From: Vreelandella zhanjiangensis DSM 21076
GTDB lineage: Bacteria > Pseudomonadota > Gammaproteobacteria > Pseudomonadales > Halomonadaceae
NCBI RefSeq assembly: GCF_000377665.1
Contig: NZ_KB898650.1
Span: forward strand, 248,001-312,000
Length of the DNA: 64,000 nt
Direction: 5' to 3'
Positions 7,272 to 31,886 of the stretch are shown in pieces (the first letter of the stretch is position 1; every line of letters begins with the position of its first letter). The notes under the pieces were generated by a model. It had not been told where the DNA came from, did no database searches, and saw only the letters and a list, made by a program, of their open reading frames with translations. The translations under genes and the position numbers were made by a program.

Positions 7272-8192
7272 ATGAACACCAAGGCGACCCACCCACCCGA
7301 TACCCCGCTCTATCCGATTCGGGAAGTATCCCGTTTAACGGGTGTGAACTCGGTCACCCTGCGCGCATGGGAGCGTCGCTACGGTTTAATTCGTCCCAAA
7401 CGCACGCCTAAAGGCCACCGCCTTTACGCTCAGGACGATATAGCACGCATTGAACGTATCTTGCAGTGGCTTAACCGTGGCGTCCCCGTAAGCCAAGTAG
7501 TTGATCTGCTTGACCAGCCTGAAACGGTAGAAGCGCCTGCGCCGGATGCTGGTGACTGGATCAGCCAGCGACAGCAGCTGCAGGCAACGATAGAAGCGCT
7601 CGATTTACCCAAACTGGAAACGCTTTATCACCAGAGTCTTGCTCTTTACCCGCTGAGCATTGCGATTAACGAGTTATGGCAACCGGTTATCTTGGCGCTG
7701 GAAGCCAAATGGGCGATTCAACCCGATAATTTGGTACGCCGGACTCTGGAAGCTTTTTTACGCAGCCAGGTAGGTACGCGGCTGCATTACGCTAACCAGT
7801 CAACGCGTGGCCCTTTGATCCTGCTTAACGCGATGCCCGATGACCCTGGCCCACTATGGGTGCTGATGGCAGCGCTTATGGCCAGCGAACAGGGCTACCG
7901 TATCCAGATGCTCGATCATTCGCTGCCTCTGGAAGACCTGCCCCAAGCTGTTGCACGACTGCACTCATCAATGGTGCTGCTGGCAAGCGGCCAGCGCGAA
8001 AGCGACAGCTATATCCATACGGAGCTGCCTAATGCCGCTGAAGGATTGAGCGTACCGCTGGGCGTTTGTGGTGAAGTTGCCCGACTACGCGATAATGAAC
8101 TGCGTAGTGGGCCCGTACACACGCTAGGCAGTGATCTACCCCAAGCGATTGCGAGGCTACGCCCGCTACTGCGCGAGTCGGGTGTGCTGTAG
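7272..8192 (+). CDS. MerR-family regulator, class II LitR-like
   Basis: This 306-residue regulator has an N-terminal MerR winged helix (residues 14-80; YPIREVSRLTGVNSVTLRAW, then RRYGLIRPKRTPKGHRLY) and a C-terminal region shaped like the B12-binding half of CarH/LitR. The cobalamin residues are absent: after Trp147 the usual W-x9-EH has Arg157-Thr158 in place of Glu-His, and the DxHxxG ligand loop reads DDPGPL (190-195) with Pro192 at the histidine position. That fits class II LitR proteins such as Pseudomonas putida PplR, which act without B12. phrB follows 94 bp downstream, and light-responsive regulation of repair is the natural reading. RBS AAAGG precedes the ATG. Confidence 0.85.
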   Translation: MNTKATHPPDTPLYPIREVSRLTGVNSVTLRAWERRYGLIRPKRTPKGHRLYAQDDIARIERILQWLNRGVPVSQVVDLLDQPETVEAPAPDAGDWISQRQQLQATIEALDLPKLETLYHQSLALYPLSIAINELWQPVILALEAKWAIQPDNLVRRTLEAFLRSQVGTRLHYANQSTRGPLILLNAMPDDPGPLWVLMAALMASEQGYRIQMLDHSLPLEDLPQAVARLHSSMVLLASGQRESDSYIHTELPNAAEGLSVPLGVCGEVARLRDNELRSGPVHTLGSDLPQAIARLRPLLRESGVL

Positions 8193-9714: not shown

Positions 9715-11547
9715 TTAAGCTCCCGAAGCGAGGGGCAGCGCCCAGCGCTGCTCCAATTCAGCCGCAGGCAGGGGCCTTGCGAAATAGAAACCCTGCACAA
9801 TGGAGCAGCCTGCATTCACCAGGAACTGGCACTGCTCCTGGGTTTCCACCCCTTCGGCCACCACATCAAGCCCCATTCCTTCAGCCATTTCCAAAACGGC
9901 TTTGACAATCGCGGCGTCTGCCTTGCTACCCGGCAGCTCTTTGATAAAAGCGCGATCCAACTTTATTTTATCGACCGGTAGTCGCTTAAGATAACCAAGC
10001 GATGAATAGCCGGTTCCAAAGTCATCAATGGCAATAGCGTAACCCTGCTCACTGAGAGCTTTTAAGCGAGGCCCCATATCGCCTGCACGCTCATCAATCA
10101 ATACCGACTCCGTCAGCTCCAGGCCAATCTGCGAAGGTTTTAGCTGATAACGTTTTAAACACGTGGCCAACTGAGCTTCCAGGTCGCCCTGAAAAAGCTG
10201 AAGAGCTGAAATATTGACCCAGATGGTCAGCTTAGGCATGCCACTGTTTTGCCAGTGAGCCTGCTGGGCACAGGCCTTTTCAATCACCCAGCTGCCCAGC
10301 TCCGCCATCAGCCCGTGCCGCTCAGCCAGAGGAATAAAATCGCCGGGTGAGATCATTCCATTGTGAGGATGCCGCCAGCGTAAAAGCGCCTCCATGCCCA
10401 ACAAATCGCCGGTGCTGGGGTGATGCTGAGTTTGATAATGTAGCTCCAGCTGGTCGCCGGATATCAGTGCGGCGCGCAGATCACTGACCAGTGCCAGCTG
10501 TGGGTTATCCTGCTTATCCAGGGCCGGGCGAAAACGCAGGCTATGGTTTCGGCCTAATCTTTTGGCGCTATACAGAGCGGATTCCAGGCGCTGAAACAGA
10601 ACGCCCGAATCACGCCCATCTTCGGGCGCGCGGCAGCTGCCAATAGTGAGACCCAGGCGAAGAAGCTGATCACTAATTTCAAAGGGCCGCCCCATATGCT
10701 CACGCAGTGATGCAATCCACGCCTCGTGATCATCAAACGTAGTGGTGCGAATCACCATGAATTCGTCCCCCCCCAAACGCCCGACCACGCTACCCGCGAC
10801 ATAGCCTGCAAGCCGTTGAGCAAAACGTGCTAACAGTCGGTCGCCCTGCTCCACCCCCAGGCTATCGTTAACGAACTTCAAGCCATCAATATCAACCAAG
10901 GCAATGTCCAGGCTTTCTCCTGCACGCAAATGGCGTAAGCGAGATGCCATTAAATCGTGCAAACGGCGACGATTGGGCAAGCCGGTCAGAGGGTCTTCAA
11001 AACCGATACGCCGCAAGTCATGTTCACGCGCTTTTTGCGCCGAAATATCCGTAAATAGACTAATAAAATGTGTGATATTGCCCTGCTTATCGGTAACGGC
11101 ACGCATCTTTAGCCATTCGGGATACTCATCGCCATGCTTGCGCCGATTCCACATTTCACCTTCCCAGCGACCCGTGGCTTTTAACGTGCTCCAAAACGTT
11201 TGGTAAAAGGCCTTATCGTGGCGTGGAGCAGCCAGCGTTTCCAGCTTAAGGCCGATTACTTCATGGCTTTCATAGCCGGTAATTTCTGTGAACGCAGGAT
11301 TCACCGCCATGACCCGGTTTTGAGCATCACTAATCACAATTGCATCGCTTGCCAGGCTAATAGCGCTCTGGGACAAACGATAGCGCAGGCGTTGTTGGCG
11401 TACTTGATGCCAGGCATCCCACAGCCCGCAAATGACGAGGCTAGCGGCCACCAGGCGCAACATGGCATCGGGCAGCCAAACACAGGCAGGTAGTGCCATT
11501 AAAGCTACCCAAACCAGCGGGCGATTAAGAGAAACTGGTAGCCACAT
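9715..11547 (-). CDS. PAS-GGDEF-EAL c-di-GMP turnover protein
   Basis: This 610-residue protein starts with two membrane helices (about 8-45), followed by a PAS domain (about 60-175) ending in a PAC-like segment, GGDEF (about 180-335) and EAL (about 350-600). The GGDEF signature RLGGDEF is intact, so cyclase activity is possible. The EAL domain keeps GMEALLRW, NISALQLFQ, the DDFGTGYSSL loop and VVAEGVET, which are the metal and catalytic residues of active c-di-GMP phosphodiesterases. It may be bifunctional; net activity cannot be read from sequence. The gene converges on phrB with 15 bp between stops. The PAS ligand is unknown. Confidence 0.93.
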   Translation of the reverse strand: MWLPVSLNRPLVWVALMALPACVWLPDAMLRLVAASLVICGLWDAWHQVRQQRLRYRLSQSAISLASDAIVISDAQNRVMAVNPAFTEITGYESHEVIGLKLETLAAPRHDKAFYQTFWSTLKATGRWEGEMWNRRKHGDEYPEWLKMRAVTDKQGNITHFISLFTDISAQKAREHDLRRIGFEDPLTGLPNRRRLHDLMASRLRHLRAGESLDIALVDIDGLKFVNDSLGVEQGDRLLARFAQRLAGYVAGSVVGRLGGDEFMVIRTTTFDDHEAWIASLREHMGRPFEISDQLLRLGLTIGSCRAPEDGRDSGVLFQRLESALYSAKRLGRNHSLRFRPALDKQDNPQLALVSDLRAALISGDQLELHYQTQHHPSTGDLLGMEALLRWRHPHNGMISPGDFIPLAERHGLMAELGSWVIEKACAQQAHWQNSGMPKLTIWVNISALQLFQGDLEAQLATCLKRYQLKPSQIGLELTESVLIDERAGDMGPRLKALSEQGYAIAIDDFGTGYSSLGYLKRLPVDKIKLDRAFIKELPGSKADAAIVKAVLEMAEGMGLDVVAEGVETQEQCQFLVNAGCSIVQGFYFARPLPAAELEQRWALPLASGA

Positions 11548-11916
11548 GGCGATTCGCTACGTCCTATCACTGAAAACTGACATTAAATAAATATAATGCT
11601 AAGCAATATACGTATCATGCTGCCGTACCAAAAGCTTGAATAACCGCATATTACGTTAATAGGCCGTTTAAGTGGATATATTCACTGACGACAAGCGGTA
11701 TAAAAAGCCTGCCTTCAGTCATCACTGATTAATAAAAAACGTTAGTTATAAGCAATCAATAGCGACTTGCGTGCATTCAGCGGTTTCGGGAAGTAGACTA
11801 GGCTAGGCCTCGCGGGCCGTGCCTCGGTGCTAGACGTTACTATTAGCCCCCGGCGCTATGCCTCGGCTGTAGGTGCCGCACGCGGCCAACAACCATTTTG
11901 AACTCGGAACGATTCA
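11548..11916. other. Intergenic region upstream of fabA
   Basis: These 369 bp separate the leftward PAS-GGDEF-EAL gene from rightward fabA. The left part is AT-rich and the last 120 bp are GC-rich, with the octamer TGCCTCGG occurring twice (near 11820 and 11860). I could not identify a convincing promoter, FabR-like site or small ORF. Promoters for both genes must lie here. Confidence 0.5.
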
Positions 11917-12432
11917 GTGACCAAGCAACATTCCTTTGATCGCGAAGAACTGCTGGCCTGCTCCCGCGGCGAGCTATTTGGCCCCGGAAATGCACAGCTT
12001 CCGGCTCCCAATATGCTAATGCTTGATCGTATTGCGCATATTCATGAAGAAGGCGGTGAGCACGGCAAAGGCGAGTTAATCGCTGAGCTGGATATCTCTC
12101 CTGACCTGTGGTTCTTTGATTGCCATTTCCCAGGCGACCCGGTCATGCCCGGATGCCTTGGCCTTGACGCCATGTGGCAGTTGGTGGGCTTCTATCTGGG
12201 CTGGCTAGGCCACCCTGGACGTGGGCGTGCGCTTGGCTGCGGTGAAGTGAAATTCAGCGGCCAGATTATGCCTGACGCGAAAAAAGTAACTTATCGTATT
12301 AATATAAAGCGTATTATTACCCGTCGACTTATTTTGGGTATCGCTGACGGTACCGTATCCGTCGACGGACGTGATATTTATCAGGCTAATGATTTACGCG
12401 TTGGCCTATTTACCTCCACCGCGAATTTCTAA
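11917..12432 (+). CDS. fabA: 3-hydroxydecanoyl-ACP dehydratase/isomerase FabA
   Basis: The 171-residue protein matches E. coli FabA over its whole length. It dehydrates 3-hydroxydecanoyl-ACP and isomerises trans-2- to cis-3-decenoyl-ACP, the branch point of anaerobic unsaturated fatty acid synthesis in the cytoplasm. The active-site segment [19 protein letters not shown] contains the catalytic His and Asp. Translation starts at a GTG (11917) giving [22 protein letters not shown], which matches the family start; the ribosome-binding site is weak. fabB follows after 12 bp in the same operon, so the two unsaturated fatty acid enzymes are coexpressed. Confidence 0.97.
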
Positions 12433-12444
12433 CAGGAGGCTTCC

Positions 12445-13662
12445 ATGCGACGAGTGGTAGTCACCGGCCTTGGCATTGTGTCTTGCCTAGGCAACGACCA
12501 ACAACAAGTCCTTGAAGCGCTCAAAAATGGGCGCAGCGGTATTCGTTTTAAGGAAGAGTACGCTGAACGCGGCTTTCGAAGCCACGTAGCGGGCAGCATC
12601 GATATTGACCTTGATGCCCTTATCGACCGTAAACTACGCCGTTTTATGGGTGATGCGGCAGCCTATGCCTATGTTTCCATGGCGCAAGCCATTGAAGACT
12701 CTGGGCTGTCTGCCGAAGATATTTCCAACGAACGCACCGGGCTCATCGCAGGTTCTGGTGGCGCGTCAAGCGCCAACCAGGTAGAGGCTGCCGACGTCAT
12801 GCGCGAAAAAGGCTTGCGTCGCGTTGGCCCTTACCGCGTGACCCGTACCATGGGCAGCACGGTATCAGCCTGCCTTGCTACCCCCTTCAAGATTAAAGGC
12901 GTGAACTACTCTATTTCGTCTGCCTGTGCGACCTCAGCACACTGTATTGGCAGCGCGATGGAGCAGATTCAGCTGGGTAAGCAGGACGTGGTATTTGCCG
13001 GTGGCGGTGAAGAAGAACACTGGACACTCTCGTGCCTGTTCGACGCCATGGGAGCACTCTCCACACAGTATAACGACGCACCAGAAAAAGCTTCGCGCCC
13101 GTATGATCAGGCACGTGATGGCTTTGTGATTGCTGGCGGCGGCGGCATGCTGGTGCTTGAAGAACTCGAGCACGCCAAAGCGCGCGGCGCCAAGATTTAC
13201 GGCGAGCTAGTCGGCTATGGCGCCACGTCTGACGGTCATGACATGGTGGCACCTTCCGGGGAAGGCGCTGTACGCTGCATGCACCAGGCAATGGCCACCG
13301 TGAATGGCGATATTGATTATATCAATACCCACGGCACCTCAACGCCGGTTGGCGATGTTGCTGAACTAAAGGCAGTACGTGCCGTGTTTGGTAACTCAAC
13401 GCCTGCCATGAGCTCCACGAAGTCCCTCACGGGCCACTCTCTGGGTGCGACCGGCGTTCAGGAAGCCATTTATTCACTGCTGATGATGCAACACAACTTT
13501 GTCGCGGCCTCTGCCAATGTCGAGCATCTCGACGAGCAGGCGGACGGTTTTGATATCGTGACAGAGCGGCGTGACGGCGTAACGCTCGAGCGTGTATTGT
13601 CCAATAGCTTCGGTTTTGGCGGTACTAACGCCTGCTTGGTATTCCAGCGTTTTAACGGCTAA
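12445..13662 (+). CDS. fabB: 3-oxoacyl-ACP synthase I FabB
   Basis: This 405-residue KAS I condensing enzyme elongates cis-3-decenoyl-ACP and saturated acyl-ACPs with malonyl-ACP. The catalytic triad is visible: Cys in SSACATS, His in [11 protein letters not shown], and His in [12 protein letters not shown]. The C-terminal [11 protein letters not shown] glycine loop is present. AGGAGG lies just upstream of the ATG. It sits 12 bp after fabA and ends before a strong terminator, giving a two-gene fabAB operon as in pseudomonads. Confidence 0.97.
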
Positions 13663-20814: not shown

Positions 20815-21558
20815 GTGAGCCAAGACCAAAGCTGCATCCTCCATCATTTCAGTCATTACTGCTCTCTAAGCAAGGAAGAAAAAGAGCTATTGGTATCATT
20901 GGAAGAAAGTCCTACCGATATCAAAGCAGGCTCACTACTCTGGGAAATGGGCGATCCGGCAAGCGAATTTTGTACATTAAAAAGCGGCTGGGCGTTCTCC
21001 TATCGCCACCTTGAGAACGGCAACCGACAGATTTTAGAGGTTTTTTTACCTGGCGATATTATCGGTTTGCGTGAATTCGCTTTTTCCCAGCGATTAGAAA
21101 ATGTACGCATGATTACCGATGGCGTTGTGTGTCATTTTCCGCATAAGCGTCTTCTCGAAATATTTCGCCAGTCCATATCGCTCACCTCGGTGGTGTTTGC
21201 CATCGCCAGTCGCCATCAGGCGCTGCTCACAGAGCGTTTGGTAAACCTTGCCAGACGAAGTGCACGTCAGAAAACGGCGCATTTTCTTTACGAGATGTAC
21301 CTAAGGCTACGCCAGACCAATAGCCATATTGATGGGCAGTTTCGACTTCCCTTATCTCAAGAGCAGCTTGCCGACATTCTGGGCTTAAGCCCTGTCCACG
21401 TCAGCCGTACCTTTAGCTCGCTGAGTGAGGAGGGCCTTGTTTTTCGTGACCGGCACAACCTGACTATCCCCGACCTGAAAGCACTGGCCGAAGCAGGTGA
21501 GTTTGATGACTGCTATCTTCACGATGACGTTAGACCGCTTTTTGATCTCTCTGCCTAA
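20815..21558 (+). CDS. Crp/Fnr-family transcription regulator
   Basis: This 247-residue regulator has a cyclic-nucleotide-binding-like beta-roll (about 30-145) and a C-terminal winged helix (about 165-235) with recognition helix LSPVHVSRTFSSLSEEGLV. Cysteines occur at 7 and 16 (SCILHHFSHYCSL) and scattered later, but they do not make the FNR Fe-S pattern, so the signal is unknown. The GTG at 20815 follows GGAGA at about 8 bp; a longer frame from 20749 is not supported. The gene stands alone between the uvrA terminator and its own terminator. Confidence 0.85.
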   Translation: MSQDQSCILHHFSHYCSLSKEEKELLVSLEESPTDIKAGSLLWEMGDPASEFCTLKSGWAFSYRHLENGNRQILEVFLPGDIIGLREFAFSQRLENVRMITDGVVCHFPHKRLLEIFRQSISLTSVVFAIASRHQALLTERLVNLARRSARQKTAHFLYEMYLRLRQTNSHIDGQFRLPLSQEQLADILGLSPVHVSRTFSSLSEEGLVFRDRHNLTIPDLKALAEAGEFDDCYLHDDVRPLFDLSA

Positions 21559-21563
21559 TCCTG

Positions 21564-21589
21564 CTGCGTGCCAAGGCACGCAGTTTTTT
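21564..21589 (+). terminator. Terminator of the Crp/Fnr gene
   Basis: A hairpin CTGCGTGC-CAAG-GCACGCAG is followed directly by TTTTTT, eight nucleotides after the stop region of the regulator gene. Confidence 0.92.
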
Positions 21590-21649
21590 ACGCTGGGCTT
21601 AGCTCAACACAGCCTGTAGGCTTTTATTACCTAACGTTGACGACTAACC

Positions 21650-22189
21650 ATGAAACCTTTACCAACTGCCCTGGCCAGCGCCTTACTTTTTAGCGCACCT
21701 ATAGTATCGGCTGCGACGTTTAACATGCAGGATGTGCAAACGCATGGCCATTGGCAGTCAATGGCGCTTACGCTGGGTAATGAGCATCACTTTCGCGCCG
21801 TTGAGACACACAGTTACTCAGACGCCACGCTCAGCCTGAACGCGACACAAAATGTGTGCGATTTACCCTGGCTTGAAATGCGTGTCACGCTGGAGCAACA
21901 GCAAGGTGAGAGTAAAACCGTCAACCTAGTCCCCACGCGGCTACGCATTGATGAACACCCCGTGGTGGATACCATGGCAGAATTTATCACTGAGCGCGGC
22001 GATGACGGTTTTTATGTGCACTTCTACCTTGGCGACATGCAGACATTAATGACTCAGATGCGTCAAGGCGAACAGCTGTTTCTAGGCTTTGATCAAGGCG
22101 AACAAGCACCCTGGTATATGACATTCCAGCTTGAAGGAGCCAACGAGGCTATTGAACGCATGCAGGCCCTTTGCGAGGCGGCGCGCTGA
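21650..22189 (+). CDS. Exported protein of unknown function
   Basis: This 179-residue protein begins MKPLPTALASALLFSAPIVSA, a Sec signal peptide with a probable cleavage site after SAA around residue 22. The mature part has two cysteines (NVCDLPW and the penultimate helix, QALCEAAR) that could form a disulfide, and alternating beta-strand-like segments. I recognise no family. It follows the Crp/Fnr gene but is separated by a strong terminator, so it has its own promoter. It converges on the phytochrome-GGDEF gene. A clear ribosome-binding site is not visible. Confidence 0.65.
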   Translation: MKPLPTALASALLFSAPIVSAATFNMQDVQTHGHWQSMALTLGNEHHFRAVETHSYSDATLSLNATQNVCDLPWLEMRVTLEQQQGESKTVNLVPTRLRIDEHPVVDTMAEFITERGDDGFYVHFYLGDMQTLMTQMRQGEQLFLGFDQGEQAPWYMTFQLEGANEAIERMQALCEAAR

Positions 22190-22223
22190 AGGCTAACAAT
22201 CAAAATAGCGTTTTTTTAGCAGC

Positions 22224-24230
22224 TTAGGCTATCTCACCGCCAGCTATTTCAACGCGGTCTCGCCCGTCGCGTTTGGCGCGGTACATGGCCTGATCGGCGC
22301 GGGCGATTAACGTTTTGCAGCTATCCCCAGGCTGCCAAACCGCAATACCGATACTCACGGTGACCAATTGGTTAAGCCCTGCGACGTGAAGCGTCGTGAG
22401 CAGTGTACGTAAGCGCTCGGCTAAACCTAGCGCGGCCTGCAGATCAGAGTGTGTAGCAAGCACCACAAATTCCTCCCCACCCCAACGACCAAAATAGTCG
22501 CAGCCACGCAGCGAATTTTCCACCAGCCGTGCCAGTGCTACCAAAACGTCGTCGCCCAGGCTATGCCCATGGGTATCATTGATCATTTTAAAATGATCGA
22601 CATCGAAAAGCAGCAGTGCAAAACCTGCTCCATAGCGTTTCGCCGCGACAAGCTCTGTGTCGATCGCCTGTTCAATGCGATAGCGGTTCCATACCTGGGT
22701 CAACGGATCAAAATGGGCAAGCTGTTCAAGGCGTTGATTGGCAGCGGCTAGCGCCTTACGCTCATTCTCCAAGTGCATGTTCAACATGCCGATTTCGTAA
22801 CGTGAAATGGCAAGTGTTAAATCTTCGCCTAACTTTACAGCTGCCAGACGCTCAACACGCTGCCACGCTTCGCTGCTGGCGATAATGTCCTCATACCAGG
22901 CAGCTGGCGGCGAATTGCATACTGACGGCGTGACTTGGCTGGTCGGCTGCATGGACCAGTAAAGCGCTTCCACCTGCTCGGGTCGAAAAAAGCATAGCCA
23001 CGCACGCTGCGCCGGATTCATGGGCAGCGGTACGGCCAGCACACCCGACTGCTCTGGCATGGCAAGCGAGCTGGTCAAGGGCTCTTTGGCTATATGGCGC
23101 GTGCACCATGGGCCGCTATGCGTATGGGCGGTGCCCAAGCGAATCACAAACTGGCTTATCACCTCAGGCGTGGGCGTCTTTCCAACCTGATAGATGCCGC
23201 CTGCAACCCACAGTGCAATACCGTGAGCACGGAACAGCGTCATCCACGTATTGGCATGATTAAACAGCAGTTGTTGCGGGCTTTGAGGTTCTTGATGCGC
23301 ACTGGTGGCAGGCATCAGGCTATCCTGAACACGCTTTAGATAACGTGCCTCCTGACGAGCGCGCAGCAGGGCCAACCGCTCGGTAGCCATTTGTACCAGG
23401 ATATGTACTGCATCCCGAACCGAGGCTGGTACCGGGTGCGGCGTCGCCGAGAAGCACGAAAGCAGCCCCCAAAGGCCAGTGTCACGCTGCATCGCCACGC
23501 ATAGCATGGCGCGCACACCCAGGCGCTGCATATAGCATTGCCGCTCCGGGGCTGGCGCGCGCAGTACGCTCGCGCCTAGATTAACCGGAAAGTCGTTAGG
23601 CATGAGGGGTTCGAATGACGCTTTGGCATCTTCAATAAAGCGTACCGGATGGCGCGCATAGGCACGCCGAAGCGCGAGTGGAGTGTCGCTGGCCGCCATC
23701 CGCTGCCCCACATAAGCGGGCAGCTGGGCATCTTTAGCCTCGGCCACAATGTGGCTATGCCAATCGGGATCAAAATGACAGATGGTCACACGCTCGAAGC
23801 CCGTTAACTGGCGGACCTCGTTGACCAGATAGGTAAGCAGTTCTTCCTGGTTGGCCGCCTCTGTGAGCTTGATCAATTGCTCGTTGATCGCCCCTAATAG
23901 ACGCCGCTGGCCCACAATGACAAGCGGCTCAATCTCCATGATGACGTGCTCACCGCTTCGGTAAGCACGCAGCTGAAGGCGGGCCTGCTTATCTAAGCCA
24001 TGGCTGAATACCAGCGGTGCCGCCAGCCGCTGCTGGCCCTGCAGTTCACGCCGAACACGCTGGGCCATGCGCTTACCCAGCAGCTGATTTAACGTTACCT
24101 TCTGCGCTGGAGAGGCGCTAACACCGACCAGCGCTTCAAGGTTAGTGCTGGTGGCCTGGATATGCCGACTATCGGCATCAAGCACCAGCAAGGCACCAAA
24201 TGACTGCAGTAAAGGGTGATGCTTAGACAC
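22224..24230 (-). CDS. Degenerate phytochrome-like (PAS-GAF-PHY) diguanylate cyclase
   Basis: This 668-residue protein has the photosensory order of a bacteriophytochrome: PAS (1-105, LQSFGALLVLDADSRHIQAT), GAF (about 120-300), PHY (about 310-490), then a GGDEF domain (about 505-668). The chromophore features are lost. There is no N-terminal Cys before the PAS, DIPxxAR reads SDTPLALR (181-188), the SPIHxxY segment reads APERQCY (227-233) without the histidine, and CHH reads CFS (259-261). The tongue PRxSF motif is also missing. The cyclase looks active: GGEEF at 584-588 with an RxxD inhibitory site (575-578). A GTG start is used. It lies 24 bp after motD, so it is probably cotranscribed with the second stator. 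Confidence 0.85.
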   Translation of the reverse strand: MSKHHPLLQSFGALLVLDADSRHIQATSTNLEALVGVSASPAQKVTLNQLLGKRMAQRVRRELQGQQRLAAPLVFSHGLDKQARLQLRAYRSGEHVIMEIEPLVIVGQRRLLGAINEQLIKLTEAANQEELLTYLVNEVRQLTGFERVTICHFDPDWHSHIVAEAKDAQLPAYVGQRMAASDTPLALRRAYARHPVRFIEDAKASFEPLMPNDFPVNLGASVLRAPAPERQCYMQRLGVRAMLCVAMQRDTGLWGLLSCFSATPHPVPASVRDAVHILVQMATERLALLRARQEARYLKRVQDSLMPATSAHQEPQSPQQLLFNHANTWMTLFRAHGIALWVAGGIYQVGKTPTPEVISQFVIRLGTAHTHSGPWCTRHIAKEPLTSSLAMPEQSGVLAVPLPMNPAQRAWLCFFRPEQVEALYWSMQPTSQVTPSVCNSPPAAWYEDIIASSEAWQRVERLAAVKLGEDLTLAISRYEIGMLNMHLENERKALAAANQRLEQLAHFDPLTQVWNRYRIEQAIDTELVAAKRYGAGFALLLFDVDHFKMINDTHGHSLGDDVLVALARLVENSLRGCDYFGRWGGEEFVVLATHSDLQAALGLAERLRTLLTTLHVAGLNQLVTVSIGIAVWQPGDSCKTLIARADQAMYRAKRDGRDRVEIAGGEIA

Positions 24231-24254
24231 AAACCCGGCCTTCAGTAAATTGAT

Positions 24255-24923
24255 TCACCCCTCTGACGGTTGACGCAACAATAGCTCAACGCGCCGGTTA
24301 GCGGCTCGTCCAGCAGGCGTTGCGTTACTCTCCATGGGTTGGGTGTCGGCATAGCCAACGGCCCGCATACGAGAAATAGCCACCCCTTGACGCTCTAGAT
24401 GGCGCATTACAGCAATCGCGCGTCCAGCAGACAGCTCCCAATTGGAGGGGAATCGGGGAGTCGCGATAGGAAGGTTGTCAGTGTGCCCTTCAACTGAAAT
24501 TTGCCCGTCAAAGATTGCCAACGCTTCTATAAGGCTTTCTATCACACCTTGCCCCTGAGCGGTTAGCACTGCCTCACCGCTGGGAAACAAAAGGTTGTCA
24601 TCAATGCGCAGCGTAACGCCCCCCTGGCCTTGCGATACGCTAACACCCGGAATATTCAAGGCTGCCATTTTCGGCTGCAATCCACTGTGCTGCGGGTACA
24701 TTCCGCTAGCAAGTGTGGCGGACGGTAGCGATTCTTCCATGCTGGTGCTCACGCCACCGCCCTCATCCACCTCACTGCCACCTGGAGGCGACAGAGCAAG
24801 CAGCAGTACAAATAGCGTAATCAGCAGGGTGAGTACGTCCAAGTAGCTGGTTAGCCAGCTCTCATCGCTTTCGCTCTGCCCTGCGGGCATTTCCAGCGCA
24901 TGGCGAGTATCACGATCCAGCAT
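24255..24923 (-). CDS. motD: Flagellar stator protein MotD (MotB family)
   Basis: This 222-residue stator B subunit has a short cytoplasmic N-terminus, one membrane helix (about 27-45) with the ion-carrying Asp in SYLDVLTLL (D29), and a C-terminal OmpA-like peptidoglycan-binding domain (VEGHTDNLPI, then GRAANRRVEL). It anchors the torque unit to the cell wall. It is much shorter than the MotB encoded at 44355-45278 and resembles MotD of the Pseudomonas MotCD pair. The ATG at 24923, 4 bp after the motC stop, is preferred over one at 24947 that would overlap motC. H+ versus Na+ use is not decided by the sequence. Confidence 0.85.
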   Translation of the reverse strand: MLDRDTRHALEMPAGQSESDESWLTSYLDVLTLLITLFVLLLALSPPGGSEVDEGGGVSTSMEESLPSATLASGMYPQHSGLQPKMAALNIPGVSVSQGQGGVTLRIDDNLLFPSGEAVLTAQGQGVIESLIEALAIFDGQISVEGHTDNLPIATPRFPSNWELSAGRAIAVMRHLERQGVAISRMRAVGYADTQPMESNATPAGRAANRRVELLLRQPSEG

Positions 24924-24927
24924 CTTG

Positions 24928-25746
24928 TCAGCCTTTTGCCGCCGCACTTGATGGATCAGGTCGCGGTTTTATGCTGGCATCACGAATTTCGTCATTATAA
25001 TTGGCGATAAACGAATTCAGCGTCTCTTCAATAAATGAAGGCAGACGCCGTTTGGTAATCAGGGAAATGCCCTCCAGCACCATATTCATGGTGATAAGGC
25101 GTTCCTCCGTGCGCCGCTCAAGCTTGACGGCAATCGGTTTGAATACCAAGTTGGCCAGCAAAATACCGTAAAACGTCGTCAATAGCGCTACCGCCATGCG
25201 TGGACCGATCACATCCAGGTCGCCTGCATCCATTACTTCAAGCATATTCACCAGCCCGACGAGCATACCGATCATGCCAAACGCTGGCGCATAGGTGGCC
25301 ATGGTGCGAAAAATTTGCGCTTCTGCATGTTCACGGGCTTTTAAACGGGCGATGCGCCAGCGCAGCATATCGAAAATTTCGTCTTCTTTGGTATTGGCGA
25401 TTACCAGCTGAATGCCGGTACGTAAAAACGGGTTACGTGTATGCACGAGCTCTTTTTCCACCGCCCGCACATCGCCTTTAAACCATAGCCGGGACATAGC
25501 AACCAGTTCATTGATATCGTCACGTGCATAGGTGTTTTCACGCCGAAAGACGAGGCCCACCAGACGCACCACACGCAACACTTCCTTTAGCGGGTAGCTG
25601 ATAAACGTGGCTGCCAACGTGCCGGTCACCACGATCGCTAAACCGGGCAGGTTGATAAAGCTTTCCGGAGACTCTGCAGTAAAAAACAGAACGCTCACCA
25701 GCAGTAGCATACTGGCGAATATACCTATCAGCGTAGACGGGTTCAT
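24928..25746 (-). CDS. motC: Flagellar stator protein MotC (MotA/PomA family)
   Basis: This 272-residue stator A subunit has four membrane helices: two near the N-terminus (about 3-23 and 33-52) and two after the cytoplasmic loop (about 150-172, YAPAFGMIGMLVGLVNMLEVM, and 185-205). The proline in YAPAFGMIG corresponds to the conserved channel proline. It is of the MotC/PomA type, unlike the E. coli-type MotA at 45275-46144. The ATG at 25746 follows AAGGAA. It follows fliA by 39 bp and is 4 bp before motD. Confidence 0.88.
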   Translation of the reverse strand: MNPSTLIGIFASMLLLVSVLFFTAESPESFINLPGLAIVVTGTLAATFISYPLKEVLRVVRLVGLVFRRENTYARDDINELVAMSRLWFKGDVRAVEKELVHTRNPFLRTGIQLVIANTKEDEIFDMLRWRIARLKAREHAEAQIFRTMATYAPAFGMIGMLVGLVNMLEVMDAGDLDVIGPRMAVALLTTFYGILLANLVFKPIAVKLERRTEERLITMNMVLEGISLITKRRLPSFIEETLNSFIANYNDEIRDASIKPRPDPSSAAAKG

Positions 25747-25785
25747 CAACGGTTCCTTGCCGGTTATTGTGTAGATAGAAGCGGT

Positions 25786-26487
25786 TCAAGCAGAATCGTG
25801 TAAGCGGGCCCGCAGGCGGCTTATCGCCTGGCTATGCAGCTGCGACACACGTGACTCCGTTACTCCGAGCACAGCTCCCACTTCTTTGAGGTTCAGCTCT
25901 TCCTGGTAATAAAGCGCCATCAGCAGCTTTTCCCGATCGGGCAGCGCCTCAATGGCGGCAATTAACGTTTGCCGCTGCTGCTCATCCAGCAGCTTTTCAA
26001 ACGGTAGATTGCTGACATCAAAGCTTGCTGGCTCGCCGCCATCGGCGACAAGCTCTTCAAACGGCAGTAACTGGCCACTATTGGTGTCGTTAAGCAGCTG
26101 CTGATATTCATCAAGCGGCATATCAAGCTCAAGCGCAATTTCCTTCTCTTCCGGTGGGCGCCCCAGCTGCTGCTCCAACCGGCGAACCGTGTCATCCATG
26201 GCGCGAGCAGCCCGCCGTACGCTGCGTGGCATCCAGTCGCGTGTGCGCAGCTCATCCACCATCGCCCCACGGATACGCTGGCTTGCAAAGGTCGCAAAAC
26301 TAGCCCCTTGAGCGGCGTCAAAACGGCCTAGTGCCTCTAAAAGCCCTACGGTGCCTGCCTGGATAAGATCATCAAGTTCAATGCTTGCCGGTAATCTGAC
26401 CTGCAGCGTTAAGGCGTGACGTCTTACTAGTGGCATGTACTGCGCTAACAGCTCACCTTGTTTGATTCTGCCTTTTGCTGTGTACAT
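25786..26487 (-). CDS. fliA: Flagellar sigma factor FliA (sigma-28)
   Basis: This 233-residue sigma-70 family factor lacks region 1.1. Region 2 includes LPASIELDDLIQAGTVGLLEAL and FATFASQRIRGAMVDELR, and region 4 has LPDREKLLMALYYQEELNLKEVGAVLGVTESRVSQ. It directs RNA polymerase to late flagellar and chemotaxis promoters (TAAA-N15-GCCGATAA). Two such sites occur in this window, before flaG and fliS. The gene sits between flhE (26 bp upstream) and motC, so it is expressed with the flhBA-flhF block. Its anti-sigma factor FlgM is not in the window. Confidence 0.96.
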   Translation of the reverse strand: MYTAKGRIKQGELLAQYMPLVRRHALTLQVRLPASIELDDLIQAGTVGLLEALGRFDAAQGASFATFASQRIRGAMVDELRTRDWMPRSVRRAARAMDDTVRRLEQQLGRPPEEKEIALELDMPLDEYQQLLNDTNSGQLLPFEELVADGGEPASFDVSNLPFEKLLDEQQRQTLIAAIEALPDREKLLMALYYQEELNLKEVGAVLGVTESRVSQLHSQAISRLRARLHDSA

Positions 26488-26513
26488 CTTATTGCCTCGC
26501 GGCTATACAACTT

Positions 26514-26918
26514 TTACTGGTAGTTCACGATTACATTTAGCCCCTGCACGCGTACCGGGCGCTGGCCTGGCCTCAATGCAAAGCGAAACTGCAGTGGCGC
26601 ATCCGCTTGCCTGCCCGCTAGCTGGGTAATGGTACCGCGCCCGCCACTCAGTGCAACGCACTGCTCTGGATGACATAGCCAAGCGTTGATGGCCGCCCCT
26701 GGAGGCGCTTCAAGCCGCCAGTGTATACGGTCAAGCATACCGTCAGGCACCGGTGCGCCATTGGGTGGCGCTATCGGCTGACTGCGACTTTCACGATCAC
26801 TCATTGCCACCATCACGCTGGGTACCGACGCACTCCAGCTACCCGCTGCCTGAGCAGCACCGATAATGCTCAGAAACCCGCCCACAACGCCGACTACCTT
26901 TAACCATCCGCTTAGCAT
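26514..26918 (-). CDS. flhE: Flagellar protein FlhE
   Basis: This 134-residue exported protein has a signal peptide (MLSGWLKVVGVVGGFLSIIGAAQA) and matches enteric FlhE in pattern: a Trp-Arg pair (HWRLEAPPGAAINAWLC), HPEQCVALSGGRGT with the second cysteine, and the C-terminal VIVNYQ (VIVNYR in E. coli). FlhE is a periplasmic protein linked to proper export-gate and rod assembly and to control of proton leak. In enterics it follows flhA; here it follows the FlhG-like gene and precedes fliA. Start 26918 has GGGGAA at 9 bp; an ATG at 26927 is the alternative. Confidence 0.8.
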   Translation of the reverse strand: MLSGWLKVVGVVGGFLSIIGAAQAAGSWSASVPSVMVAMSDRESRSQPIAPPNGAPVPDGMLDRIHWRLEAPPGAAINAWLCHPEQCVALSGGRGTITQLAGRQADAPLQFRFALRPGQRPVRVQGLNVIVNYQ

Positions 26919-26985
26919 ACTTGGCATTTCCCCAACTCAACGGTACTTGGCATAAGCCTTACATAGAAGCGCCTATATGTCGCTT

Positions 26986-27588
26986 TCAGCGCGCCAGTAA
27001 CAACAAATCAGTGGCTAGATAATGCGCAGCGGCTTCACGCAAATTACTCAGCAGTCCTTGGCGCGGCAAATGCGGCTCGTGCAGCGCCAAAAGCTGGCGT
27101 GGCCCGCCGTTTTCACGTGCCTGGCGTAAGACGCGGTACATTTGCGCAAACGCATCAGCCTCGCTGTTAACCCACAGCGCCCAGCGGGTATTTTCAGCGC
27201 TTAGCTGAGACAGTTCAGACGCATCTGCCTTGACCACATGAATAGCCCAATCATCAGGATCACCCGCCCAGTGGCGTCCCAATTCAGCCCACTGCGCCAG
27301 CCGGCGTTTCACCTGATTGATTGACGACACGCCATGGCCAGGTAAACCAACGATAAATAGCGTTTTTTTAGGCCTTATCAGCGGGCGTTCGGGTAACTCG
27401 GGCATGCTGAGCGGGGGTGTGAAGACACTTTGTTCAAGCGCCTCACTGGCCTTTTCAGCTTCAGTTTCCGTTACTTGAGTTTCCGCATCCGCCTCTTCCT
27501 CTAAAGACGCATTAGGAGTAGCTTGCGTCTGTTTCAAGCGTTGGGTATCTGCCCATTGGCGCAGACCCGCCGCCTGATCCTGGCTCAT
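26986..27588 (-). CDS. FlhG-like FlhF partner lacking a canonical P-loop
   Basis: The 200-residue protein starts MSQDQAAGLRQWA, the DQAxGLR helix that FlhG/FleN proteins use to bind and activate FlhF GTPase. An acidic, probably disordered linker follows (about 25-72). The remaining 125 residues begin like a Rossmann strand (TLFIVGLPGHGVSS, 76-89), but the MinD-type GKGGVGKT motif is absent, and the protein is well below the usual FlhG length of 260-300. It overlaps flhF by 4 bp (ATGA). I infer an FlhF activator without ATP-switch behaviour. It is not a frameshifted FlhG, since the frame is open and continuous. Confidence 0.65.
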   Translation of the reverse strand: MSQDQAAGLRQWADTQRLKQTQATPNASLEEEADAETQVTETEAEKASEALEQSVFTPPLSMPELPERPLIRPKKTLFIVGLPGHGVSSINQVKRRLAQWAELGRHWAGDPDDWAIHVVKADASELSQLSAENTRWALWVNSEADAFAQMYRVLRQARENGGPRQLLALHEPHLPRQGLLSNLREAAAHYLATDLLLLAR

Positions 27589-29750
27589 ACATTCACCTCC
27601 TGACTAATACTGCCCAGTTGGCGAATAGCGTCACGTGCCATAAAGGCATACACCAGCGCGTCCAACATGGCCGTATCGCGCCGTTTGCGGCGCGCGCCCA
27701 GCAAGCTCAAAAGGTCAGTGCGCAGGGTCGAGGCCGCGTCATCCTCGGCGCTATCCAGGTGACCAACCACAGCGGCCATGCCGCTGGCCATCAATAAACG
27801 CACTTCGGAGCTCAGGTCTCCGCTATCTGCCTCTTTCAACTGCTGCCAAGCCCGCTTCGTGAGCGCCGCGAGCCCTTCCCCCTGTAGCTGTATCAGTAGC
27901 AGCGATAGGATCTCGCTACCTAAGTGGGCTGGCGTGAGCCAGTAACGCCGGGTAACCACCTTGGCGCTTTCGGGGTCACGAATCTCGCCATACCATGCCA
28001 GCAATGCGTTGCCAGCCTCATCGTTTACTTCAGCATAGGCGGTCCATAGCTGCATGTACTGGCCGCGAAAGCGCACGCCAACATGATGGCTGAGCGTGCT
28101 TTCATTAAACAGTAAGCGCAGCGCATAACGCTCGCCGTGAAAGTATACTCGCTGTGCCGAGGTAACCAGGCTGATCCAGGTCAGTTGCTGCTCATTTAAC
28201 CAGCGCACGGTTTCCGGCACGGGTAAGACGGGCAATACATGCGTACACGTTCCAGCCGTTTCTTTTAGATTTTCCAGACGCGCCTGCCAGCCCGCCGGCT
28301 GGCGATGCTGAAGCCTGGGCAAGGCAAGCCAGGCGTTCTGCTCATTAAAGCCGATATCCGGCATGGCCCAGTCACAGCCACGTTCATTGCGCCGCGCAGC
28401 CCAGACTATCCCTTGAGCAGGTGAAGAATGGGCAAGCTGCCGGTCAAGCTGGGCATCTTGTAACCCGCCCGGTAACGCACCAATATCCCATACGGCTTCA
28501 AGAGCGCTGAAGCCTGCCATGCGTTGACGCAAGCGGGTAAGTAGCGATGACAACCGCCGACCTTGGCCCAGCACATCCCGCGACCAGCGGGGCATGCTGA
28601 CAGGTGCTGGCAGTATGGCGCGCGTATTCATAGCTACCTGCGTTTCCAGCGCCTGATCAATCAGCGACTCAGGCAGTGCCACGCTCATATCCTCAGGCAC
28701 CTGCTGGCCATGCGAGCTGAACAGCACGCGCATTCCATGGCGTATGACGATATCCAATACCGGTGCTAGCCGACCGGCTTCGTCCTGCTTAGTGATAATA
28801 CAGTCATCAAGCTGAGCGCCCGCCGCACGCGCGGCCTGACGATAGCGCAGCACGACTTCCTCAAGGGTTTCTGGCTGGCTGGCCGCGTTCAGCAGAAGCA
28901 CCAGACGAACGGTAGACTGGCCTCCCTGCAGATGCGCAATCTGCTCTATTACCCGCTGATCACGCTGGCTCATGCCGACAGTATCGATCATGACCCACTG
29001 CTTGCCCTGCAGACGCCCCAGCAGATCATCAACCGGCTGCTCAGCGTCTAACGCATACATGGGCGTATCCAACAGGCGAGCGTAGATTCTTAACTGCTCA
29101 TGGGCGCCAATACGAAAGCTATCCGTGGTTACCAAGGCCACGGGGCGCGTGCCATGACGCATCACAAAGCGGGCGGCAAGCTTCGCCGTGGTCGTGGTCT
29201 TGCCCACCCCGGTAGGCCCGACCAGAGCAACAATACCGGTTTGATCGAAAAAGCTGGCTTCTTCGTCCAGCACATTGAGCCTGCTGGCCAGCTGGTGACG
29301 CAGCCAAACTAGCGGCTGATCACTATGTGCATCAAGCGCTTGCAGTGATTCAGGCAACCCCTCAAGCAACTCATCGCTAAGCTCGGCGCTAAACCCCACG
29401 CGGCCCAGCAGCTGATATAGCCGCTCTCGTGTACCCACTGTCTGGGGAGGTTCAATAGGGCGGGACGCCTGTTGGCGGGTAATCAGAGCGCGCATATCCT
29501 GCATTTCGCGCAGCAGCCGTTCACTCATGGTCTGAAGAGGATCCTGCGCCTCGACAGGCGGCGCTAGCGGGCTCGCAACCGGCTCTGGAGCAGCCTCGAC
29601 AGACTCGACGGCATCGTCAGCCATCGCTAGAATTTCAATGCCATCGTCGGTGCGTCGGTTGGCCAGAATAAGGGCATCATCGCCAAGTGTTTCACGTACC
29701 TGGCGCATGACATCACGACTGTTTGCTCCAATAAAACGCCTAACGCTCAT
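27585..29750 (-). CDS. flhF: Flagellar SRP-type GTPase FlhF, long form
   Basis: This 721-residue protein has an N-terminal basic domain (1-95), an N domain (about 100-165) and an SRP-like G domain (about 170-370) with GPTGVGKTTTTAK (178-190), TDSFRIGAHEQL (209-220), DTVGM (256-260) and TKQDEAG (320-326; the usual TKLDE has Leu). FlhF sets the number and position of flagella. Typical FlhF ends near 400-500 residues; here about 345 more residues follow, with no motif I recognise but several conserved-looking Trp and Tyr. Long forms occur in some betaproteobacteria as far as I recall. It is 54 bp after flhA and 4-bp coupled to the FlhG-like gene. Confidence 0.92.
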   Translation of the reverse strand: MSVRRFIGANSRDVMRQVRETLGDDALILANRRTDDGIEILAMADDAVESVEAAPEPVASPLAPPVEAQDPLQTMSERLLREMQDMRALITRQQASRPIEPPQTVGTRERLYQLLGRVGFSAELSDELLEGLPESLQALDAHSDQPLVWLRHQLASRLNVLDEEASFFDQTGIVALVGPTGVGKTTTTAKLAARFVMRHGTRPVALVTTDSFRIGAHEQLRIYARLLDTPMYALDAEQPVDDLLGRLQGKQWVMIDTVGMSQRDQRVIEQIAHLQGGQSTVRLVLLLNAASQPETLEEVVLRYRQAARAAGAQLDDCIITKQDEAGRLAPVLDIVIRHGMRVLFSSHGQQVPEDMSVALPESLIDQALETQVAMNTRAILPAPVSMPRWSRDVLGQGRRLSSLLTRLRQRMAGFSALEAVWDIGALPGGLQDAQLDRQLAHSSPAQGIVWAARRNERGCDWAMPDIGFNEQNAWLALPRLQHRQPAGWQARLENLKETAGTCTHVLPVLPVPETVRWLNEQQLTWISLVTSAQRVYFHGERYALRLLFNESTLSHHVGVRFRGQYMQLWTAYAEVNDEAGNALLAWYGEIRDPESAKVVTRRYWLTPAHLGSEILSLLLIQLQGEGLAALTKRAWQQLKEADSGDLSSEVRLLMASGMAAVVGHLDSAEDDAASTLRTDLLSLLGARRKRRDTAMLDALVYAFMARDAIRQLGSISQEVNV

Positions 29751-29804
29751 GCCTTACCTTATATGTGTACAAGAAACCGATGCGTTGATTGCCGACTACC
29801 ATGC

Positions 29805-31886
29805 TTAGCGGCCACCCACTGTCGTGGTCACGCGCAGCGTGCGGTCATCGGGTATCTCAGCCTGGGACATAACGACAAGGTGACGCAAGCGGCGGCGCAA
29901 GAAACGCGACAGCACGCCGCGCAGCGAATGCTGTACCACCAGCACCGGCGCTTCACCACTGCCCTCATGCTGTTCCAGCGCCTGCTGCGCCTGATTCATC
30001 AGGGTTTCAGCCAGACCCGGCTCCATCGCACCATTGCCGTTCATTGCCTGTATCAGCACCTGCTCAAGCTGGGCATCAAGCCCCATTACATTGAGCATCT
30101 CCTGCCCGGCGAACCATTGCTGGGTGATAGCGCGACCTAACCCAATACGCACCAGCGCGGTAAGCTCAGTAGGATCTTTTTGCTGACCGGCGTACTCCGC
30201 CAGGGTGTCTAAAATAGTGCGCATATCACGAATAGAAACATCCTCTTCCAGCAGGTTTTGCAAAATACGCTGCAGGATAGTGAGTGAAATCGCCTTAGGC
30301 ACGACTTCTTCTACTAGTGATTTCTGATCATCGCCCAGTTTATCGAGCAGTTTCTGAACCTCTTGGCGGCCCAGCATTTCAGGCGAGTGGCGATGCAGAA
30401 GATGGTTCAAATGGGTGGCAATCACGGTGCTTGCATCTACCACGGTGTAACCATAGACCTGAGCGTGCTCACGCTGATTGGTGTCAATCCATACCGCCGG
30501 CAGGCCAAAGGCTGGATCTTGGGTAGCCGTTCCCTGTAGTTCTCCAGACACTTGGCCTGGGTCGATTGCCAGCCATTTACCTGGCTGCGCTTCAGCGCGG
30601 CCAATTTCAGCGCCTTTCATGGAAAGCACGTAGGTATTGGGCGGAAGCTCCAGGTTATCGCGAATATGCACAACCGGGGGCAGGAAGCCGACTTCCTGGG
30701 CAAACTTTTTACGCACGCTTTTAATACGCCCTAACAGCTCGCCTTTCTGGCGGGCATCCACCAGCGGGATCAAGCGGTGCCCTACCTCCAGGCCCAAGGT
30801 ATCGACCAGTTGGACATCTTCCCAGCTGGCTTCCGGTGTTTCCTGCAAGGCGGGCGGCTCCGCGGTAATTTCTTCCTGCACCTGGGCTTTCTGCTTGTTA
30901 CGAATCAAGAACCAGGCTAACCCGCTTAGGAGTGCCGTAAAAATCAAAAAGACCAGATTGGGCATACCCGGCACCAGGCCTAATAACCCCATGACCATCG
31001 CCGCCAGAATCATGACCTGGGGGTTCACAAACAGCTGGCTGATCATCTGCTGACCAACGTCCTGGTCGGTATTAACCCGGGATACCGTCACACCGGCGGC
31101 CGTGGAAATAACCAACGCCGGGATCTGTGCCACAAGGCCATCGCCAATGGTCAACAGCGTGTAAGTGCGTCCGGCGTCTGCAAAGCTCATATCATGCTGC
31201 AGCATGCCGATCAGCAGGCCACCGATAATATTTACCACCATGATCACAAGGCCAGCCATGGCATCGCCGCGCACGAATTTACTGGCGCCGTCCATCGAAC
31301 CATAAAAATCGGCTTCCTGAGCGACTTCGGCACGCCGCTTTTTGGCATCTTCTTCGCCAATCAGCCCTGCATTTAAATCAGCGTCGATGGCCATCTGCTT
31401 ACCGGGCATGGCATCAAGCATGAAACGTGCGCCCACTTCGGCGATCCGCCCGGCGCCCTTGGTGATAACCATGAAGTTGATAATGACCAAGATTAAGAAG
31501 ACCACCAGACCCACGGCAAAATTACCGCCTACCAGGAAGGTACCAAACGCTTCAATAACCTTACCGGCAGACGCACCACCCGCATGGCCTTCCATCAAAA
31601 CGACGCGGGTCGAGGCAACGTTAAGCGATAGACGCAATAGCGTGGTGAACAGCAGAACCGCCGGGAAGGCGGCAAAATCCAGCGGTTTTTCTGCAAACAT
31701 GCTGACCAGCAGCACCATGATGGCCAGGGCAATGTTAAAGGTGAACAGTAGATCCAGCGCAAACGGCGGCAGGGGCAGGATCATCATGCCCAAAATCATT
31801 AGAATCAGCAGCGGCCCGGCGAGCAGCTTCATGCGCACATCGCCCATCCAATCGCGGTGGGTGACCAGCTGGTTCAAACCTTTCAT
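29805..31886 (-). CDS. flhA: Flagellar export gate protein FlhA
   Basis: This 693-residue inner-membrane component of the flagellar type III export gate has about eight N-terminal membrane helices (to about residue 330), with the conserved segment FPAVLLFTTLLRLSLNVASTR and the FHIPEP-family loop MPGKQMAIDADLNAGLI. The large C-terminal cytoplasmic domain docks chaperone-substrate complexes and forms the nonameric ring. Length matches E. coli FlhA (692). Its ATG overlaps the flhB stop (ATGA). Confidence 0.97.
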   Translation of the reverse strand: MKGLNQLVTHRDWMGDVRMKLLAGPLLILMILGMMILPLPPFALDLLFTFNIALAIMVLLVSMFAEKPLDFAAFPAVLLFTTLLRLSLNVASTRVVLMEGHAGGASAGKVIEAFGTFLVGGNFAVGLVVFLILVIINFMVITKGAGRIAEVGARFMLDAMPGKQMAIDADLNAGLIGEEDAKKRRAEVAQEADFYGSMDGASKFVRGDAMAGLVIMVVNIIGGLLIGMLQHDMSFADAGRTYTLLTIGDGLVAQIPALVISTAAGVTVSRVNTDQDVGQQMISQLFVNPQVMILAAMVMGLLGLVPGMPNLVFLIFTALLSGLAWFLIRNKQKAQVQEEITAEPPALQETPEASWEDVQLVDTLGLEVGHRLIPLVDARQKGELLGRIKSVRKKFAQEVGFLPPVVHIRDNLELPPNTYVLSMKGAEIGRAEAQPGKWLAIDPGQVSGELQGTATQDPAFGLPAVWIDTNQREHAQVYGYTVVDASTVIATHLNHLLHRHSPEMLGRQEVQKLLDKLGDDQKSLVEEVVPKAISLTILQRILQNLLEEDVSIRDMRTILDTLAEYAGQQKDPTELTALVRIGLGRAITQQWFAGQEMLNVMGLDAQLEQVLIQAMNGNGAMEPGLAETLMNQAQQALEQHEGSGEAPVLVVQHSLRGVLSRFLRRRLRHLVVMSQAEIPDDRTLRVTTTVGGR

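Follow-up and report, generated by a model that had tools for sequence, protein, structure and literature searches.

The 64,000-nucleotide stretch of the salt-loving bacterium Vreelandella zhanjiangensis DSM 21076 analyzed here (the window; contig NZ_KB898650.1, positions 248,001 to 312,000) encodes on its minus strand, at 22224-24230, a chromophore-free, PadC-like diguanylate cyclase of 668 amino acids (aa), identified from its open reading frame (ORF), from domain searches and from its match to IsPadC. The ORF begins with a GTG codon 24 nt past the stop codon of motD, a spacing that had been given in the original prediction for this gene and that the ORF coordinates confirm. From its N-terminus, the protein contains a PAS_2 domain (aa 7-102, 23925-24212; Pfam PF08446, E 2.1e-10), a GAF domain housing the former bilin pocket (aa 129-284, 23379-23846; PF01590, E 3.1e-8), a PHY domain (aa 300-475, 22806-23333; PF00360, E 4.5e-18), a 40-residue PHY-GGDEF linker (aa 468-507, 22710-22829) and a GGDEF domain (aa 505-659, 22254-22718; PF00990, E 6.8e-44), all of which lie on the minus strand, as do the sites within this protein and the genes from flhA to motD, together with motB and motA, that are described below. 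The order PAS-GAF-PHY ahead of a GGEEF motif, as first proposed, is borne out by these domains and by a full-length match to IsPadC (5llw), the best among solved structures (residues 7-660, E 2.8e-90), and the PAS-GAF fold of phytochromes is present. The AlphaFold2 model of the cyclase has a pLDDT of 86.4, with values below 50 at aa 422-441 of the PHY tongue. The VIA-align matches listed are phytochromes as well; IsPadC is not among these 50 rows, which is uninformative either way.

The window protein resembles IsPadC (5llw, 6et7), which we take to originate from Idiomarina, along the entire PAS-GAF-PHY-linker-GGDEF length. IsPadC differs in having the DIP, PRxSF and SPLH motifs and a linker of class +7, one heptad shorter than that of the window protein, and is reported to be a biliverdin-binding, light-activated enzyme (PMC9587094). 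MaPadC+14 of Marinimicrobium agarilyticum shares the 40-residue linker and full-length homology at 40% identity, but the protein from this species in our set (locus L039) has the N-terminal Cys, DIP, SPIH, CH and PRxSF, and strong activation of MaPadC+14 by red light has been described (PMC9587094). Among the best 80 of 469 relatives, nearly full-length matches at an identity of at least 40% are confined to loci L035-L039, most of the others matching the GGDEF part alone.

The GGEEF active-site motif (aa 584-588, 22467-22481) is one of the two forms, GGDEF or GGEEF, that characterize PadCs. Both it and the RxxD inhibitory site (R575xxD578, aa 575-578, 22497-22508) are intact, as originally noted, and alignment shows the GGEEF motif, R575 and D578 to be invariant in 41 of 41 proteins. 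The linker falls within the PadC length classes, which are spaced by multiples of seven residues: its 40 residues equal those of the M. agarilyticum protein and recur in all 31 chromophore-free (blind) proteins of the phylogeny described below, where proteins with canonical chromophore residues (hereafter sighted) have linkers of 26, 33 or 40 residues. The protein is predicted with high confidence to be an active, bilin-free cyclase.

Sites in the chromophore pocket are numbered here as in DrBphP, following a list of positions that we assume to be correct. In the M. agarilyticum protein, the pocket Tyr, the DIP Asp, the pocket His and the second His are spaced by 31, 53 and 30 residues, which matches DrBphP positions 176, 207, 260 and 290; the numbering of the pocket sites thus agrees. 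In addition, PDB titles among the structural matches name sites 207, 260, 263 and 290. At every one of the pocket and tongue sites compared below, the 11 aligned sighted proteins have the canonical residue.

Of the chromophore residues that the original prediction declared missing, the N-terminal biliverdin Cys, a defining feature of PadCs (PMC9587094), is indeed absent, both from the N-terminal segment and from the eight further codons that remain open upstream of the GTG. It is present in all 14 sighted proteins of the family and in L039, and is unconserved in the stator-linked proteins, meaning those encoded behind motC; a Cys codon lies just ahead of the GTG in L123 and L019, and ahead of the predicted start in L179. 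The His of SPIHxxY (position 260) is likewise lost: the site reads APERQCY, with Arg230 (codon 23541-23543) in place of the His and Tyr233 retained, and Arg occupies this position in 22 of 23 aligned stator-linked proteins, the last having Gln. Two other claims stand in part. The DIP motif, also expected of PadCs (PMC9587094), reads Asp182-Thr183-Pro184 in the alignment (23679-23687), such that the Ile is replaced while the Asp and Pro persist; across the 23 proteins, Asp207 is kept in 21 and Ile208 has become Phe in 20. The CHH site reads CFS, and only its first His is of consequence, because sighted relatives read CHG, CHA or CHS. This residue, His290, is replaced by Phe260 in the window protein (codon 23451-23453) but is kept in 34 of 38 stator-linked orthologs (20 of the 23 compared above), its loss being confined to the window, L035 and L036 (Phe) and L007 (Tyr).

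Two losses go beyond those originally listed. Pocket Tyr176 is replaced by Cys151 (codon 23778-23780), as it is by Cys in all 23 stator-linked proteins, and the eroded PHY tongue (aa 420-458, 22857-22973, from the alignment and the model) is devoid of the PRxSF motif, which is absent from all 23 and present in the 11 sighted proteins. Val256 has become Pro in all 23 as well, and the pocket residues Arg222, Arg254, Tyr216 and Tyr263 are kept throughout. Since some of these losses are shared and that of His290 affects 4 of 38 proteins, the blinding is best read as stepwise: the Cys, Tyr176, His260 and PRxSF would have been lost before the stator-linked clade spread, and His290 later, in a few lineages that include the window's.

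The pigment supply shows a corresponding pattern. The lack of a heme oxygenase gene near the cyclase, noted at the outset, extends to the whole genome (4.06 Mb, completeness 100), in which none is found (PF01126, E 0.001) and in which the cyclase itself is the one PHY protein found. In a family sample of 201 genomes, 14 encode a sighted PadC. Heme oxygenase is present in 13 of the 14, in 11 of them no more than ~3.2 kb from the PadC gene and in G176 and G204 elsewhere; none is found in G141, which is 88% complete. Beside the stator-linked gene, heme oxygenase occurs in 0 of 31 carrier genomes, and in 20 of the 31 it is not found anywhere. The other 11 have one located away from the stator-linked gene, adjoining a separate phytochrome gene in nine (G007, G017, G024, G028, G030, G032, G123, G178 and G218). 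Because the pocket, the attachment site and the tongue motif are lost, and heme oxygenase was not found in the window's own genome or in 20 of 31 carriers, the branch is probably bilin-independent. The original proposal of a switch thrown by a ligand other than bilin is well supported by sequence as regards bilin independence, with such a ligand being possible. A natural comparison within one genome is provided by L148 (G094), in which a blind and a sighted PadC gene (6105-8087 and 10962-12929) lie ~3 kb apart and the heme oxygenase gene adjoins the sighted copy.

The trees include 23 of the 38 stator-linked sequences. Not included are L151, L153, L157, L159 and L181, as kin of retained sequences, and L180, L182 and L183, as broken or partial ones. 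The 23 form one clade (support 100/100) in a phylogeny of 44 proteins. The chromophore-free set comprises 31 of the 44, again at 100/100 on the full length, and leaves 13 sighted proteins outside; it also takes in proteins of the same family but of different genera (L144-L148 and L162) and two from another family (L214 and L215). When the GAF and tongue columns are removed, the split between blind and sighted proteins has an SH-aLRT value of 88, and the linker and GGDEF domain by themselves do not yield the blind branch, which the AU test does not reject either (p 0.38). An initial tree with L163 as its root likewise places the 23 stator-linked proteins in one clade with L144-L148 and L162 (100/99); L163 was left out of the 44-protein tree on account of its long branch. 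By this topology, the blind branch is taken to derive from sighted PadCs, and because its support is full on the whole length and weaker on parts, a single pigment loss behind it is likely, not certain. Separately, L163 (G213) and L181 (G209) belong to a second, distant phytochrome-GGDEF lineage (~30% identity) that has a Cys in its N-terminal region and in which the DIP motif and the pocket His are gone, possibly representing an independent loss.

The cyclase gene (dgc) is the last member of a same-strand run with short gaps or overlaps, flhB-flhA-flhF-(200-aa ORF)-flhE-fliA-motC-motD-dgc. The motD product (24255-24947) displays OmpA and MotB_plug domains, and its best NCBIfam model is MotD, under the cut-off of that model; motC (24928-25749) matches PF01618, with stator models under their cut-offs. 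The sigma factor gene fliA (25786-26487; NF005413, 309.8 bits against a cut-off of 201) ends 36 nt ahead of motC and is preceded by flhE (26514-26927; PF06366) and, farther upstream in the co-directional run, by flhF, an SRP54-GTPase gene named by its position, and flhA (FHIPEP), which together span 27585-31886. A first stator pair, motB and motA (44355-46144), lies separately beside flhC, and motCD is thus the second stator.

No sigma-28-like box (up to two mismatches) lies on the minus strand between dgc and fliA; the window as a whole contains 15 such boxes against 4.3 expected in shuffles, an excess that is to be expected of a flagellar region, and one minus-strand match falls inside the cyclase gene itself. 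Two sigma-70-like sites occur within 21500-26600, fewer than the average of 3.2 in shuffles; each is on the plus strand, and the minus strand ahead of dgc shows none. No clear terminator hairpin is seen 3′ of the cyclase gene (z +1.1). In Pseudomonas putida, flhAF-fleN-fliA are reported to be co-transcribed, and read-on into motCD is thought likely by the authors (PMC6424431).

The window's genus contributes 50 genomes (counted from listings) to the family sample, and the cyclase gene is present in 31 of them (the G005 copy being broken) and motC in 46. In all 31 carriers, the gene lies ~700 nt behind motC, in the same orientation in the loci that were read. The notion that homologs always follow motCD is thus correct within the genus; outside it, as described below, it fails. 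The four sampled genomes of the genus without motC also lack the gene, and in three of the four no FHIPEP gene is found. In another genus, L145 has a chromophore-free relative situated between fliD and fliF (Pfam). The initial observation is confirmed and concerns a conserved, probably bilin-independent branch of PadC-type cyclases that stands behind motCD in one genus.

Sequence divergence in the genus indicates constraint on both halves of the protein. Across 12 stator-linked pairs, dN/dS of the sensor is 0.036-0.180, and that of the GGDEF domain is 0.018-0.074 in 11 pairs (one being saturated), values obtained by simple counting, with several pairs near saturation and one L124 codon out of step with the protein. 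The corresponding sensor values are 0.169 and 0.221 in two sighted pairs and 0.218 in one unlinked blind pair, and in 10 of the 12 stator-linked pairs the sensor value is lower than in either sighted pair. Identity of the window protein to those of L035 and L036 is 95 and 93%, at dS of 0.42 and 0.55, respectively. The cyclase is under purifying selection in the genus, and the dN/dS values reject a pseudogene. Together with the constant 40-residue linker, this selection suggests that coupling to the output domain has been kept.

The pocket itself is conserved less clearly. Across the 23 stator-linked proteins, the entropy of 22 pocket positions is 0.71 against 0.96 for the rest of the GAF region (P 0.08); without the five-member cluster to which the window belongs, it is 0.41 against 0.80 (P 0.012), and in sighted proteins 0.27 against 1.13, with 0 of 10,000 draws as low, comparisons to which a buried-residue effect may contribute. 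The pocket is conserved more weakly than in sighted PadCs, above all when the window's cluster is included. For the window's lineage, this speaks for a scaffold rather than for a specific new ligand, a ligand being possible for the other stator-linked proteins.

One protein of the blind clade is already in print: HmPadC+14 from Halomonas meridiana was presented in 2022 by Boehm et al., where its expression is described as too poor for purification and where the main text does not discuss its flagellar or genomic context (PMC9587094). H. meridiana is filed under Vreelandella aquamarina in the NCBI taxonomy, and the V. aquamarina locus L037 holds a stator-linked ortholog with a 40-residue linker and NFS at the DIP site. 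On the strength of this taxonomy, the stator-linked ortholog and the linker length, rather than a comparison of accessions, HmPadC is very probably the gene of L037. In a search mostly by title, we found no literature on the clade, the gene order, the missing pigment supply or the selection of blind PadCs, nor any other paper on a blind bacterial phytochrome cyclase or on a cyclase behind motD. A cyclase tied to a second stator is known in Pseudomonas aeruginosa: SadC, a membrane enzyme that is not phytochrome-like and presumably not encoded behind motD. SadC is reported to interact with MotC, which stimulates it (PMC12288467). For the cyclase of the window, a tie to MotC or MotD is suggested by gene order.

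We consider it reasonably probable that the gene encodes a bilin-free PadC-type cyclase that is expressed with motCD and is switched by a protein partner or by another ligand. The cyclase would be produced together with the second stator and would act as a homodimer, in which the coiled coil between PHY and GGDEF changes register in the way described for IsPadC; binding of the product at RxxD would limit its activity. The switching signal would not be light. The pigment-free sensor would instead serve as a docking and signaling scaffold, with protein contact likelier than a small ligand; MotCD itself may be the partner, or some other protein that reports the state of the flagellum. c-di-GMP would thereby be raised near the motor, favoring surface life over swimming. 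In phytochromes, the DIP Asp is tied to an Arg of the tongue; conceivably, Asp182 pairs with Arg230, replacing the tie to the lost tongue Arg. Parts of this scheme differ in strength: the odds of a functional tie between cyclase and flagellum seem about even, and direct contact with MotC or MotD is distinctly improbable.

Several observations weigh against this scheme, and they are in large part those that would be expected if the gene were a positional passenger, that is, an active, bilin-free cyclase that serves the general c-di-GMP pool, was brought to its place by a rearrangement beside the uvrA block, and is expressed by flagellar read-through with no role specific to the stator. In L146 and L147, the blind gene adjoins a uvrA-mfs block (with ssb as well in L146; the names are read from sequence and presumed) and motCD is absent; because the same block follows the cyclase gene in the window, adjacency to motCD may be a product of rearrangement. 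None of the homologs in 18 family genomes outside the genus (E 1e-60 or better) has motC or motD in the stretches fetched, and 0 of 26 loci from other genera (L188-L213, the best-scoring among 158 genomes in which a motD-like match occurs) has a phytochrome sensor in the 1.5 kb examined behind motD, although L190 has a GGDEF gene facing its motD-like gene, and in nine of the 26 the adjoining motC-like gene is <40% identical and may belong to other stator pairs. Within the genus, 15 of the 46 motC-bearing genomes do without the cyclase gene. When its presence is mapped on a motC-motD phylogeny of 32 carriers, two of which have broken copies, and 15 genomes without it, 10 changes are required, eight of them forced by well-supported branches, with motCD kept throughout. 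We read these as repeated losses of the cyclase gene, which is thus dispensable. In G029 (completeness 99), an intact 690-codon cyclase ORF (L179) stands at the edge of a motCD deletion of which a 40-residue motD remnant and faint motC scraps are left, and no FHIPEP (flhA) gene is found. Both the presence changes and the G029 copy weigh against an obligate tie of the initially hypothesized kind, in which the cyclase would supply c-di-GMP to MotCD. Finally, a domain search of the window's genome yields no YcgR-type PilZN domain; two PilZ proteins are found. A mere passenger would nonetheless not readily explain why the gene stays directly behind motC in every carrier of the genus, why the motC-negative genomes lack it, or why L145 provides a second flagellar neighborhood, and we regard this account as somewhat unlikely.

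The remaining alternatives bear on the sensor and on the fate of the gene. The 10 presence changes, the remnants in L165, L166 and L167, the broken copies in L183 (G005) and L180 (G016) and the drift of pocket residues within the cluster of the window could be signs of a decaying relic, a cyclase with no selected role that is being lost; this is very unlikely given the low dN/dS of sensor and GGDEF domain, the GGEEF and RxxD sites intact in every aligned protein, and the high identity to L035 and L036 despite silent divergence from both. Even less credible, to the point of being practically dismissible, is a photoreceptor that still holds a bilin without the Cys, obtained from outside or made by another enzyme. 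The four pocket-lining residues kept in all 23 proteins and the heme oxygenase of 11 carriers are compatible with it, but the Cys is gone, Tyr176 and His260 have become Cys and Arg, PRxSF is missing, the window's genome has no PF01126 heme oxygenase that could be found, and in nine of the 11 carriers the enzyme sits beside a separate phytochrome. It has also to be considered that a once-blinded PadC lineage gave rise to a stator-linked branch that fixed a new pocket, with Cys at 176, Arg at 260, Pro at 256 and the Arg residues at 222 and 254 kept, and joined the motCD operon as a sensor of stator state or of a new ligand. This further step is, in our estimate, unlikely.

A bilin-free cyclase expressed with motCD would be of interest in several respects. 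The PadCs grade naturally from sighted into blind proteins while the output side stays the same, and so allow one to ask what signal takes the place of light in a phytochrome and whether a form without pigment can by itself work as a switch. If the tie to the stator is real, this would be a counterpart of SadC-MotC that is encoded together with its own stator, in a two-stator bacterium. If the new-pocket reading is correct, a phytochrome would have become a switch for the flagellar motor that responds to something other than light.

Other elements of the flagellar region merit mention. Beside flaG, the window encodes a 562-aa protein (49832-51520, minus strand) with PilZ (117-224) and HD_5 (352-483) domains, which may combine the roles of c-di-GMP receptor and phosphodiesterase. 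The 200-aa ORF that separates the flhF-like gene from flhE (26986-27588, minus strand), which has no Pfam match at E 1e-4, occupies the place of fleN in Pseudomonas. An FlhC-type regulator (46341-46898) lies beside motAB, and together with the flhF-fliA-motCD run (25786-31886) it gives a gene order that we take to be a mix of enteric and pseudomonad arrangements. The MotC of the window (24928-25749) scores best, under their cut-offs, against the NCBIfam models for MotP and PomA, presumably sodium-type stators, and the coupling ion of the second stator may thus be Na+.
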